Source of the DNA: Mycolicibacterium duvalii
GTDB lineage: Bacteria; Actinomycetota; Actinomycetes; Mycobacteriales; Mycobacteriaceae
Direction of reading: 5' to 3'
Length of the DNA: 64,000 bases
Assembly: GCF_010726645.1 (NCBI RefSeq)
Contig: NZ_AP022563.1
Location: 186,001-250,000, forward strand
Position 1 is the first letter of the stretch, and every line of letters begins with the position of its first letter. Under the pieces are notes generated by a model that was given only the letters and a program-made list of their open reading frames with translations, did no database searches and was not told the DNA's origin. Positions 16,346 through 49,445 of the stretch are shown here, piece after piece. The position numbers and the translations under genes were made by a program.

Positions 16346-16418
16346 CTTCGCGGCGGAACAGCATTCCGGGTCGTGAAAAGTGCCGCGCAGCGACCAGGAA
16401 TGCTGTTCCGCGGCGAAG
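16346..16418. repeat. Long palindromic repeat (GGAACAGCATTCC type), intact copy
   Basis: Two 22-bp arms (16346-16367 and 16397-16418) are inverted copies with one mismatch and share the core GGAACAGCATTCC. An inner GGTCG/CGACC stem and a 15-20-base loop complete a long hairpin. It lies between the O-methyltransferase stop (16425) and the exporter operon promoter, so it can terminate methyltransferase transcription. The same core is the sequence interrupted by the insertion sequence at 47.3-48.8 kb. Confidence 0.85.
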
Positions 16419-46800: not shown

Positions 46801-47258
46801 TGCGCGTAGGCCGCCAGCTGCAGCAGTGCCTCCACCTTGACCGAGCGGGCCAGCTTGGTGTCACGCAGCCGGTAACGCGATCCCTCGGGGCCGTCCTCGA
46901 GGAGCATGAAGTCGGCGAACCCGACGAACCGGCCGTCGAACATCGCCGCCTGGTAGATGACCGGAGCGCCCCGGCGCACCGCGCGCAGGGTCTGTTCACC
47001 GGCCGCGCTCAAGCCGTCCAGCGTGTAGGGCGGCCGGCCGATGACGGTGACGTCGGCCTGTCCGCGCAACTGGTCGAGATGACGCCGTTCGTGCTCGTCG
47101 CCCAGCTCGGCGGTACGGGCCAGCAACTCGTCATCGCCGGAAACGGCAGGCCCCCAACCCAATCGCGCATCGAAACTGCGCAGCAACGCGTACTCGCAGC
47201 GCGCCGCGGCGGCGAGGTCGGACGCGCTGAACAGCACACGCCCCTCGATGACGAACAC
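43827..47258 (-). CDS. RecB-like iron-sulfur nuclease fused to SF1 helicase (TM0106 family)
   Basis: 1143 residues from GTG 47258. The N-terminal PD-(D/E)xK RecB/Cas4-like nuclease has a cysteine at position 21 and the trio ACFRCAEC at about 205-213, matching the four-cysteine [4Fe-4S] staple. An RNase-H-like region follows (DLFFDFEGDP, about 310). The helicase part carries HGPPGTGKTFTAARVI, VVEEAGQFS (Walker B), LLGDPQQLPQV, RVGTVDKFQGRQAPVVFVSM and LNRNRLNVAISRAK. Probably DNA end-processing or repair; equivalent of Rv1251c. The insertion sequence lies about 60 bp upstream of its start and may have changed its promoter. Confidence 0.88.
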   Translation of the reverse strand: MFVIEGRVLFSASDLAAAARCEYALLRSFDARLGWGPAVSGDDELLARTAELGDEHERRHLDQLRGQADVTVIGRPPYTLDGLSAAGEQTLRAVRRGAPVIYQAAMFDGRFVGFADFMLLEDGPEGSRYRLRDTKLARSVKVEALLQLAAYAQTLTEAGVPVAEDVDLMLGDGSIVSYPVAELLPVYRPRRDALQDLLDRHLAGGRPVAWEDEQVRACFRCAECETQVRAHDDLLLVAGMRAGARARLLDAGIGTVAELAAHDGEAPADLSPRTFTALRSQARLQVSAPVDGKPPYQVVDAQPLMVLPDANKGDLFFDFEGDPLWTEDGREWGLEYLWGVLTIADDFRPFWAHNRPDERQALVDFLDMVRKQRRRHPGMHIYHYAAYEKSTLLRLAGRYGVGEHDIDELLRDGVLVDLYPLVRKSIRVGTENYSIKSLEPLYMGAELRTGDVTTATASITEYARYCELRDSGRRDEAATVLKQIEEYNRYDCRSTRRLRDWLMARAIESEVPPRGPVTAAAAREAAAGADPPADHVDRALCAFAGDAVAERTPDQVAAAMFAAAKGFHRREDKPFWWGHFDRVNNPVEEWADSSGVFLAEDHEIVADWHQPPRARKPQRHVRLRGEIATGELTSNMYALYDPPAPQGLAEDPDRRGFGKVTVLGCDDPEAPTEVVICERPPKDGDVFDQIPFALTPDAPIGTQPLQDAIAAAAAVVADGLPRLPADAITDVLVRRSPRTVGGAGLPRTGDVVADITAALLDLDSSYLAVHGPPGTGKTFTAARVIAGLVNTHRWRIGVVAQSHAVVENLFGDIIAAGVDAAVVGKKLNSVRSGWTELTNPEFGPFIADHDGCVVGGTAWDFANATKIAEKSLDLLVVEEAGQFSLANTIAVARAARNLLLLGDPQQLPQVSQGNHPEPVDGSALGWLVDGHHTLPEERGYFLDRSFRMHPAVCRAVSRLSYGGRLRPEAVAATRRVEGVPAGVRALLIDHTGNATDSPQEAAAIVAEIRRLLGTRWTDEHGTRPLDQGDMLVVTPYNAQVVMVRRHLDAAGLTDVRVGTVDKFQGRQAPVVFVSMTASSVDDVPRGMSFLLNRNRLNVAISRAKYLAVVVRSAQLTEYLPSTPDRLVELGAFLALTPCETPSR

Positions 47259-47331
47259 GCCGCCACTGTAGGCCAGCGCCCCGACACCCCCACGCTCTCG
47301 CCTCGTCCGCGGAACAGACGGTATGGGGAGG

Positions 47332-47414
47332 CTGGGGCCTCACCACATGTGAACGTGGGTTGCCGTCAGGAATTGGGTCCTGGCCGGTAGAGCCACAACT
47401 GTGGGAGGCCCCAG
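47332..47414 (+). promoter_or_regulatory. Left-end hairpin covering the transposase ribosome-binding site
   Basis: CTGGGGCCTC (47332-47341) pairs perfectly with GAGGCCCCAG (47405-47414), and CCACA with TGTGG (47343-47347 and 47400-47404), with one unpaired A. An inner stem CAGGA/TCCTG (47367-47371 and 47378-47382) fills the loop. The 3' arm contains the GGAGG ribosome site and ends on the first base of the GTG start. Read-through transcripts from outside would therefore hide the start. Confidence 0.7.
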
Positions 47415-48496
47415 TGAAGATTCAGCGTACGAGTGTTGGTTTGGATGTGCACGCACGTTCGGTGTTCGGGTGTGCACTAGATGGTCAGACCGGTGAGGTG
47501 TTTCAGCGTCGGTTGTGTCCAGATCACCGGGAGATCCTGGACTGGGTGAACGGGTTGGCTGGGCCGGTAGCGGTGGCTTACGAGGCCGGCCCGACCGGTT
47601 TCGGGCTGGCCCGCTTCCTCGGCGGGGCCGGGGTCCAGTGTCTGGTGGCGGCGCCGTCGAAGTTGGTACGGCCGTCGGGAGATCGGGTCAAGACCGATGC
47701 GCGCGATGCCGCGCATCTGGCTCGGTTGCTGCATCTGGGTGAGATCACCGCGGTCGAGGTGCCCAGCGCCGAGCGGGAAGCGGCCAGGGAGCTGGTGCGT
47801 GCCCGCGAGGATTGCCGTGCTGATCTGATGCGGGCCCGCCACCGAGTGTCGGCGTTGTTGCTGCGCCACGGTGTGGTCTATAGCGGCGGAACCTCCTGGA
47901 CGGTGGTCCACCACGCCTGGCTGCAGCGGCAACGCTTCGACACCGCGCCGGCCCAGGCTGCTTATGACACTGCGGTGGAGACGATGTTGGCGTGCGGGGA
48001 TCGGCGTGACCGCCTCGATGCCGCGATCACCGACATGGCCCGCGAAAGCGAGTTCAGCGCGGTGGTGCGCCGGCTGGGATGTCTACGCGGAGTCTCCACC
48101 CTCACCGCGTTCGGTCTGGCTGTGGAAATCGGTGACTGGTCACGGCTGAGCGGCCGCACCATCGGGGCCTATCTGGGATTGGTGCCCAGCGAGCACTCTT
48201 CGGGACAATCCCGAGTGCAGGGCTCGATTACCCGCACCGGCAACTCGCACGCCCGGCGGTTGTTGATCGAGGCGGCCTGGCATCACCGCCGCCCCTACCG
48301 TCCCGGTGTCGCGCTACGGCGGCGCTGGCAGGATGCCAGCCCGGCCGCACGTCGACGGGGCCAACAAGCCAACCAGCGTCTACACACCCGCTGGCTGCGC
48401 TTTGATGCCCGCACCAAACGCCCTGCGGTGGCCAACACCGCGATCGCGCGCGAGTTGGCCGGCTGGTGCTGGTCGTTAGCCGTGCTCGACGACTAG
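47414..48496 (+). CDS. IS110-family transposase (DEDD recombinase)
   Basis: 360 residues from GTG 47414 (KIQRTSVGLDVHARSVFG). The RuvC-like N-domain carries the acidic set Asp11 (GLDVH), Glu57 (YEAGP), Asp95 and Asp98 (TDARDAAHLARLL). The C-terminal Transposase_20 domain has LVPSEHSSGQSR (from about residue 256), the region that includes the conserved catalytic serine, and TRTGNSHARRLLIEAAW. Both domains are complete and no frameshift is seen, so the enzyme is probably active. Recombinases of this family are known to be guided by a bridge RNA/seekRNA from the element's own non-coding end. An upstream in-frame GTG at 47360 lies within the 5' hairpin loop and is not preferred. Confidence 0.94.
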   Translation: MKIQRTSVGLDVHARSVFGCALDGQTGEVFQRRLCPDHREILDWVNGLAGPVAVAYEAGPTGFGLARFLGGAGVQCLVAAPSKLVRPSGDRVKTDARDAAHLARLLHLGEITAVEVPSAEREAARELVRAREDCRADLMRARHRVSALLLRHGVVYSGGTSWTVVHHAWLQRQRFDTAPAQAAYDTAVETMLACGDRRDRLDAAITDMARESEFSAVVRRLGCLRGVSTLTAFGLAVEIGDWSRLSGRTIGAYLGLVPSEHSSGQSRVQGSITRTGNSHARRLLIEAAWHHRRPYRPGVALRRRWQDASPAARRRGQQANQRLHTRWLRFDARTKRPAVANTAIARELAGWCWSLAVLDD

Positions 48497-48799
48497 GTCC
48501 ACCTGTTGATCGTCCAGTGAAAGTGCTCTCGGAGCCGGGCAGGCGGGCACGCTGACGGTGACCCGCGCGGAATGCTCTGAGCACTCCGTTGATCTCACAA
48601 CGGATCACGCTCGTGAATAGACAGCGGTCCACCGTCACTCCAAACACCGTCCTGCGGTAGCCAACCCGCGCATTTCAGACTGACGAAGCCGTCGCCAAGA
48701 CACGCGCGCCAGCCCGTTCCACGCACCTCACTGGCCAAAGAAGCGGCGGCCACGACGACGGTTGTGGCCGCCGCTTCACCCTGCCCACTTGACAAAACA
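48497..48799 (+). ncRNA. Candidate bridge RNA/seekRNA in the right end of the IS
   Basis: About 300 bp of non-coding, structured sequence follow the transposase. AGTGCTC (48522-48528) pairs with GAGCACT (48579-48585) and encloses an inner hairpin (GCGGG/CCCGC and CAC/GTG, 48543-48566, with one bulged A). The 5' side of the internal loop has CGGAGC (48530-48535), which can pair with the lower strand of the left target (CGGAAC) with one G-T wobble. The 3' side has GGAATGCT (48569-48576), perfectly complementary to AGCATTCC of the right target. CATTTCAGAC (48671-48680) resembles the predicted circle junction CATATCAGAC. The fold was made by hand and is untested. Confidence 0.5.
48740..48777 (+). 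terminator. 14-bp perfect hairpin near the right end of the IS
   Basis: GAAGCGGCGGCCAC (48740-48753) and GTGGCCGCCGCTTC (48764-48777) are perfect inverted copies with a 10-base loop. The hairpin lies inside the element, about 30 bp before the right end. It would end transcripts of the transposase and the candidate guide RNA, and could also block transcription entering from lprE. Confidence 0.7.
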
Positions 48800-48881
48800 C
48801 TCCCCATATCAGCATTCCTGGCTGTGCTCAGGGGCCGATCAGCAGCCGGGAACTCTCTTCCGCGGACGCCCGCCGGGCCGA

Positions 48882-49445
48882 TCAGCGCGGGGCGTTGCCG
48901 ATCAGCTCGACGCCGCTGCCGTTCCAGCGGAACCGCACGGTGCTGGCGAGCCCGGGAACCCCGCTGGAGTACGTCAGCGCGACGGTGTCGCCGGTGCTCG
49001 CCGTCGAGTCCAGGCCGTTGAAGCCGTAGGTGTCGGGTACCCCGGTCGGGATGAACTTGCCGAGGTGGAACAGCACCGCGCGGGTGTTCGGGTTCTCGGC
49101 GTTGGTGTTGGCCTCGACGATCACCGCCGACAGCTGCGCGCACTCGTTGTAGTTGCCGGCCAGCGGTTCGGGGCTCCACCCCTGATTCGAGCGTGGATCG
49201 GGCGGCAACTCGGAGACCGCGCGCAGGATCTCGGGGTCCGCCAGATTGACCGCGCAGGGATCCTCGGCGGCGGTGGGGCCGGGGGCCGGCGGGCTGGGCA
49301 CCGGCGACGGCGCAGGGGCCGCCGCGGGCGTCGGCACCGCGGTCGGGCCCGGGGTCTTGGACACCGTGGAGTCGCCCGAACTGCACGCCACCACCGTCAG
49401 CAGCGCAGCGCCCACGACAGTGCCGAGGGTCACCGAGCGCTTCAC
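48882..49445 (-). CDS. lprE: LppP/LprE family lipoprotein
   Basis: 187 residues from GTG 49445. A short basic n-region (KRSVTLG), hydrophobic VVGAALLTVVAC and lipobox (VVAC) are followed by a Pro/Ala/Thr-rich linker. The conserved domain begins DPCAVNLADPEILRAVSELP, then has YNECAQLSAVIVEANTNAEN and HLGKFIPTGVPDTYGFNGLD; the two cysteines are probably paired. Equivalent of Rv1252c; function unknown. Its natural terminator-like palindrome downstream has been split by the insertion sequence. It is divergent from deaD across 87 bp. Confidence 0.88.
   Translation of the reverse strand: MKRSVTLGTVVGAALLTVVACSSGDSTVSKTPGPTAVPTPAAAPAPSPVPSPPAPGPTAAEDPCAVNLADPEILRAVSELPPDPRSNQGWSPEPLAGNYNECAQLSAVIVEANTNAENPNTRAVLFHLGKFIPTGVPDTYGFNGLDSTASTGDTVALTYSSGVPGLASTVRFRWNGSGVELIGNAPR

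Follow-up and report, generated by a model that had tools for sequence, protein, structure and literature searches.

The 64,000-nucleotide stretch of Mycolicibacterium duvalii DNA analysed here (the window) carries an insertion sequence of the IS110 superfamily, which encodes a transposase and has non-coding stretches of 98 nt upstream of the gene (47316-47413) and 314 nt downstream of it (48497-48810). The features discussed below are collected in Table 1. The element very probably represents a known kind, an RNA-guided member of the IS110/IS1111 family whose target would be chosen by RNA pairing, with GGAATGCT as the right guide and GAATAGAC as the left guide. Comparison with relatives shows where the element ends and where it was inserted; it also shows that the guides covary with their targets, that the stems are compensated, and that a second loop is complementary to the element's own ends. 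An earlier examination of the letters alone (the sequence-only reading) had proposed bridge-RNA target recognition of the IS110 type just after the transposase stop codon, and in this general form the proposal is strongly supported by the comparison.

The transposase possesses both the DEDD RuvC-like N-terminal domain and the Transposase_20 C-terminal domain by which the IS110 superfamily is recognized, and it matches the NCBIfam model NF033542, "IS110 family RNA-guided transposase", with 208 bits over positions 2-337 of 343. Searches took the transposase as 47417-48493 or 47417-48496, the stop codon being 48494-48496. Full-length plasmid relatives annotated as belonging to the ISEc45 and ISSso6 family are 39% identical to it, and its GLVPSEHSSG agrees with the quoted motif GL-P----S(t)G. 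The similarity to the transposase of ISCro4 (PDB 9t56) is weak (E 4e-4), and the best stretch covers residues 35-131 only. Relatives were collected by a scan of public genomes, in which the best 80 of 369 candidates were kept; these are mostly actinobacterial, with 63-84% protein identity. Four of them (L002, L027, L028, and L056) are without a right end, which leaves 77 elements with the window. Right ends were located with TTGACA as an anchor; in twelve loci, automatic detection had mistaken the right-end copy within the donor guide for the end itself. A second set of genomes provided 29 loci, 20 of which were parsed and nine of which were not, including L083, where a nested insertion separates the right end from the rest of the element. 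Five of the 20 parsed pairs were already present in the first set and were not counted; this leaves 15 new pairs, and some pairs of the second set are close to one another or to the first set.

The ends of the element were fixed by same-genome copies and by the flanks of other relatives, which share AGACGGTATG at the left, CATATC at the right, and AG at both junctions. The sequence-only reading had defined the target as an interrupted palindrome. The gene beside the insertion was searched in 61 genomes, the element's own included, and one of them, L112, carries the orthologous site uninterrupted (CCGCGAAATATCATTCCGGGCAGTGCTC). This site, a perfect 21-bp palindrome, is identical at 23 of 28 positions to the joined flanks of the window, CCGCGGAAC-AG-CATTCCTGGCTGTGCTC (hyphens mark junctions), and runs gap-free across the junction when aligned by eye; the wider BLAST alignment with the window's flanks contains gaps. 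The interrupted palindrome and the two target halves are therefore right, and uninterrupted copies of the same repeat are dispersed in the genome (see below). Junctions of a further kind are seen in six copies within one genome (L003-L008), all of which have the right flank AAAGCGTG and a left junction of the form ..T-AG; here the second core base differs between the junctions, and strand exchange would accordingly fall between the first and second bases of the core. Two of these copies, L003 and L007, have identical right flanks in the stretch shown and different left flanks, as if the copies had rearranged with each other.

The right guide GGAATGCT is the exact complement of AGCATTCC, as had been claimed, and among relatives the letters between CCGCG and ATGAGC vary together with the right flank. 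The test used 69 of the 77 elements, eight being excluded for a truncated or N-bearing right flank. In a fixed register, 63 unique pairs (window included) give 253 Watson-Crick matches out of 315 at target positions 3-7, against 99.9 ± 8.9 after shuffling and a maximum of 134 in 5000 shuffles; with one pair per guide, the count is 165 of 200 against 59.5. The 15 further pairs from other genomes give 67 matches of 75 (29.0 ± 4.6 shuffled, 0 of 5000 as high). Registers were also scanned on both strands; the scan reached 75 nt upstream and 45 nt downstream of the right guide, and 40 nt upstream and 110 nt downstream of the left guide. Among 53 distinct RNAs, the right-target register reached z 16.3, and all other scanned registers stayed below 3. 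In six copies in isolate Bu41, the core letter changes too, a guide ending ..TTT going with the right flank AAA... Across the family, the match of the right guide at this place is far beyond chance, and GGAATGCT is very likely the guide for the right half-target.

It might be supposed that the transposase protein itself recognizes the palindromic repeat, that the RNA fold is a terminator or 3' untranslated region, and that the complementarity is incidental. Proteins often bind palindromic repeats, and a GC-rich hairpin closes the region. However, an RNA segment follows the target base for base, both family-wide and in other genomes, and a protein reader needs none of that; moreover, transposases 63-84% identical to that of the window have quite different targets. 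Recognition by protein alone is thus judged highly improbable. As a separate observation, L032, L043, L047, L048, L057, and L078, which come from different genera, have similar right flanks (GT(A)..then ..GACGTTG..), and separate guides may have converged there on one gene site.

The left guide is most likely GAATAGAC, which lies approx. 40 nt 3' of GGAATGCT, on the 3' side of the apical hairpin. In the register scan (41 distinct RNAs), a left-target signal occurs only there, directly before AGAC, with z 4.6 and the next highest value at 2.8. At positions -1 and -2, 101 of 106 cells agree, against 87.3 ± 1.7 after shuffling (0 of 5000 as high); one pair per guide gives 45 of 48 against 34.1. 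In the window, the guide GTGAAT-AGAC faces GCGGAAC-AGAC with three identities and one U.G, and in L082 the guide GAAAATAGAC faces CGCGAAAT-AGAC. The fixed-offset scan also covered guides for the opposite strands, and these were discarded. L029 carries the left-guide segment as a tandem duplicate (CCCTCGACCCTAGAC twice).

The sequence-only reading had placed the left guide elsewhere, taking CGGAGC and GGAATGCT as the two sides of a loop closed by the stem AGTGCTC/GAGCACT, in the order of IS621, with the bottom-strand guide first. The stretch concerned, 48522-48585, starts 25 nt past the stop codon, and all of its named letters are present (AGTGCTC at 48522-48528, CGGAGC at 48529-48534, GGAATGCT at 48569-48576, and GAGCACT at 48579-48585). 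CGGAGC matches CGGAAC at five of six positions, with a wobble possible, and the 7-bp stem does form when the 64-nt stretch is folded in isolation (minimum free energy -31.8, z -1.9). It does not form in context: folds of 304 nt and 171 nt pair its GAGC with GCUC approx. 30 nt downstream, and this GAGC is part of the apical stem, which is conserved and compensated. Of 57 distinct elements, four (window included) have a 6-base analogue of the enclosing stem (1.2 expected from shuffles), and the near relative L082 has neither CGGAGC nor AGTGCTC, despite having the same right target. GGAATGCT covaries with the right target; no counterpart of CGGAGC tracks the left target, and no left-target register upstream of the right guide exceeded z 2.1 in the fixed-offset scan, which a guide displaced by insertions or deletions could escape. 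The proposal was to fall if relatives with differing targets kept both sides constant. GGAATGCT changes among them, and the other near relative, L002, which carries CGGAAC at the place of CGGAGC though its left target is GCTGAAAT (GAAAT), tells against CGGAGC. In the predicted RNA, the loop is closed by UGACGGUG and CACCGUCA and presents the top-strand guide first, and the geometry drawn originally has very little probability left.

The structure of the predicted RNA was examined on an anchored alignment of 57 distinct RNAs, which replaced a whole-region alignment that was too gappy. In a named structure of 34 pairs, 92.8% of cells are paired against 88.4 after shuffling, 15 of the 34 pairs have changed on both sides against 6.4, and the covariation score is 0.144 against 0.060, a value reached by 0 of 500 shuffles. 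Sliding the partners by 1-3 columns lowers the paired cells to 27-39%, although these slid controls favor the structure, which was itself derived from that alignment. Pairing is weakest in the outermost helix (81.7% of cells). The target-loop stem of the window (UGACGGUG/CACCGUCA) is a compensated form of the stem, which in most relatives has GGAG-type arms. Folding gives z -4.0 for the 85-nt unit 48553-48637 and -1.7 for the 171-nt whole. A search of 47000-49200 against Rfam returned nothing meaningful, its two matches lying far below gathering. A hairpin like that at 48740-48777 occurs with other letters in the relatives inspected, and it is a possible terminator or read-through block. Taken as a whole, the 3' non-coding region of the element fits a bridge RNA (seekRNA).

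Table 1. Features of the element, its predicted RNA, and its target in the window
Feature	Position	Strand	Basis or remark
Insertion sequence, left end AGACGGTATGGGG.., right end ..CTCCCCATATC	47316..48810	+	relatives share ends; empty site
Transposase gene, GTG start at 47414	47414..48496	+	Pfam DEDD_Tnp_IS110, Transposase_20; NCBIfam NF033542
Shared core AG	47316-47317 and 48811-48812	+	
Left half-target CGGAAC, GAAC adjoining the junction	47310..47315	+	uninterrupted orthologous site in L112
Right half-target AGCATTCC	48811..48818	+	
Predicted bridge RNA (long seekRNA) with approximate outer limits	48542..48712	+	57-sequence alignment
Target-loop stem, 5' arm UGACGGUG	48553..48560	+	GGAG-type in most relatives
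Right-target guide GGAATGCT, pairing with top strand AGCATTCC	48569..48576	+	
Apical hairpin between the two guides (UGAGC..GCUCG)	48578..48613	+	
Left-target guide GAATAGAC, pairing with bottom strand of GAAC-AGAC (one U.G)	48615..48622	+	
Target-loop stem, 3' arm CACCGUCA	48630..48637	+	
Right-donor guide CCGTC, complementary to left-end GACGG	48647..48651	+	
Left-donor guide CATTTCAG, copy of right-end CATATC-AG with one mismatch	48671..48678	+	
GC-rich hairpin, possible terminator of the RNA	48740..48777	+	function inferred
TTGACA; promoter with GACGGT (17-nt spacer) if the ends join in a circle	48789..48794	+	promoter function inferred
Target repeat without an insertion, GGAACAGCATTCC on each strand	16355..16409	.	

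The target loop is followed by a predicted donor loop, in which CCGUC and then CAUUUCAG match the element's own ends. The right-donor guide makes five of five pairs with the left end (G.U counted) in 37 of 43 elements and four of five in the other six, and CAUAUCAG copies the right end together with the core at six of six positions in 41 of 59 elements and at five of six in 18. The covariation of donor guides with ends is based on few natural variants. L017 combines a right-donor CGATC with GATCG, and L047, L069, and L072 combine TCGTC with GACGA; left-donor variants likewise track the ends in L037 (CATATT with CATATT), L076 (AATATC with AATATC), and L025 (ATATG with the right end CATATG). By the published mechanism of IS110/IS1111 elements, the ends would join in a circle with a junction reading ..CATATC-AG-ACGGTATG.., which would bring TTGACA to 17 nt from GACGGT. 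TTGACA lies within the last 35 nt in 56 of 57 distinct elements, and, by analogy with published junction promoters, the two boxes would act as a promoter across the junction. The transposase would then bind the RNA, the two loops of which would hold the target and the circle junction, and the strands would be exchanged at the AG core. In L002 of Mycolicibacterium hippocampi and in L083 (G184:C2), which is the same locus in a genome of the same genus as the window, a further insertion of roughly 1.2 kb interrupts the element in the donor-loop region; both outer flanks still fit the element's guides, with one wobble.

Several observations weigh against RNA-guided targeting as described, either in the family or for the copy in the window. 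The shuffle controls leave the relatedness among the elements in place. The target in the window is itself near-palindromic, so that the strands are indistinguishable from the window alone, and the uninterrupted site in L112 has the core AT instead of AG. Right-guide pairing misfits in L024 (one of five) and L059 (two of five). Support for the left guide comes mostly from two positions. Taken singly, position -1 falls short of significance (23 of 24 against 21.2; 456 of 5000 shuffles), and identity is low beyond -2 (25 of 53 at -3 and 16 of 53 at -4). In the donor loop, the elements with only four right-donor pairs are L011, L020, L046, L061, L075, and L078, and the left-donor guides of L017 and L059 read CATACC and do not follow the end, CATATC. 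As for the window itself, the element occurs once in its genome and its left-donor guide has CATTTC where the right end has CATATC, both of which allow that the copy is inactive; its own left target, GAAC, is also one wobble off its guide.

These last three features, along with altered scaffold letters (CTGAGC in the window, ATGAGC or a near form in nearly all relatives), would suit an RNA system of the kind proposed whose copy in the window has decayed into an immobile relic. Such decay seems rather unlikely, though it is a serious alternative. The frame of the transposase gene is unbroken and covers almost all of the NF033542 model (2-337 of 343), and the nested copy L002 has the same donor-guide U. 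In addition, two contig ends in G019, a genome of the same genus, match the left end at 115 of 115 bases with the flanks CCGCGGAAT; this suggests that a near-identical element has moved recently.

The target GAAYAGCATTCC is one arm of a palindromic repeat that is dispersed in the genome. GRAAYANCATTCC has 14 matches in this genome (control 0), ten of which are GGAATAGCATTCC; 12 of the 14 have a CGGAAY context and are distributed over nine uninterrupted loci, and two look like chance. Six of these 12 form three opposite-arm pairs 42-43 bp apart, that is, a palindrome of approx. 65 bp, and at others the second arm is degenerate. The two guides of the window spell GAAT-AG-CATTCC, which is the commonest form of the repeat here (GGAATAGCATTCC from GAAT on); the element is therefore likely programmed to the repeat rather than to a single site. 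The repeat was surveyed in 10 genomes chosen for holding the element, its pieces, or the empty site, the element's own included. The wider pattern occurs in eight of them, 2 to 35 times each; the two matches in G196 equal its control, and G018 and G013 have none. Among 20 stretches fetched around further element ends, left ends of the same sub-lineage lie in the same repeat twice in G019 and once in G196 (CCGCGGAAT-AGAC), and right ends (AG-CGTTCC) do so once in G196 and twice in G159. The G196 guide GAGAATGCT pairs with AG-CGTTCC with one G.U, and the left and right ends in that genome may belong to one copy.

The guides also appear to follow the local form of the repeat. The repeat in the host of L082 is mainly GAAATAGCATTCC (six of eight), in agreement with the L082 guide AAAT. 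The L083 guide GAAT differs from its target GAAAT; the site has GAAATAGCATTCC without the rest of the repeat, and the 28 repeat matches in this host comprise 22 of GAAATATCATTCC and two of GAAATAGCATTCC. With two of three cases agreeing, the tuning of guide to repeat is suggestive. Since the window combines the guide GAAT with the host repeat GGAATAG, and a near relative in another genome combines AAAT with GAAATAG, it is tentatively proposed, as a possibility short of an even chance, that an actinobacterial bridge-RNA lineage is programmed to the repeat of its genus and tracks the variants of that repeat. Guide and repeat would then co-evolve, and the repeats would constitute a standing landing pad.

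Through covariation, the two guides in the bridge RNA of a mycobacterial IS110/IS1111-family element are placed, and the position of the left one is corrected. Among the titles listed in searches of one literature collection, none dealt with a seekRNA or bridge RNA of mycobacteria. The likely targets of the lineage could be read by a simple rule, from the letters between CCGCG and ATGAGC together with those before AGAC. A ready set for asking which target positions matter is provided by the 57 distinct natural RNAs, for most of which the matching target is also available; in this family, the right half-target carries most of the information. Moreover, an RNA-guided transposon is connected to a repeat family present in several genomes of the genus, and the apparent tuning of the guide to the repeat is the most interesting part.

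Compared with known systems, the element departs from the IS621-type arrangement, in which the RNA lies upstream of the transposase gene and the bottom-strand guide is 5' in each loop: here, the RNA lies downstream, the top-strand guide comes first in both loops, and the core is AG. The IS621 core is CT. The predicted RNA resembles the IS621 bridge RNA described by Durrant et al. (2024, PMC11208160) in having a target loop and a donor loop, both of which hold a left guide and a right guide. According to Siddiquee et al. (2024, PMC11187229), IS1111-type seekRNAs have the top-strand guide first, and the IS110-type ISEc21 has the reversed order. In the same account, IS1111-type elements resemble the present one in several respects: the non-coding region lies downstream of the transposase gene in ISEc11, ISKpn4, and ISPa11; the top-strand match is 5' of the bottom-strand match, here in both loops; relatives have been naturally retargeted; the circle junction carries a promoter, which is only predicted here; and ISPa11 also targets repetitive extragenic palindromic (REP) sequences. 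Unlike those elements, the present family has left-target information nearly confined to two bases, is an actinobacterial lineage, and has an RNA that is predicted.

The ends offer a further comparison. As in IS1111-type elements, a 7-nt left extension lies outside the subterminal inverted repeat (sTIR) in 42 of 43 elements, as does a 3-nt right extension in 42 of 43 (the latter counted from rows). In the window, the sTIR ATGGGGAG/CTCCCCAT has 8 bp; 28 of 43 elements have a 3-bp sTIR, with lengths ranging from 2 to 11 bp, and only eight of 43, window included, have an unbroken perfect match of 7 bp or more. The sTIRs of IS1111-type elements are usually 11-13 bp according to Siddiquee et al. 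(PMC11187229) or 7-17 bp according to Durrant et al. (PMC11208160), compared with the 8 bp of the window. Finally, insertion into a dispersed extragenic palindrome is shared with the REP-targeting elements ISPa11, ISPpu9, and ISPpu10 (Tobes and Pareja 2006, PMC1525189). In contrast to those elements, the hosts and the repeat are different, and guides that spell the repeat are identified here.
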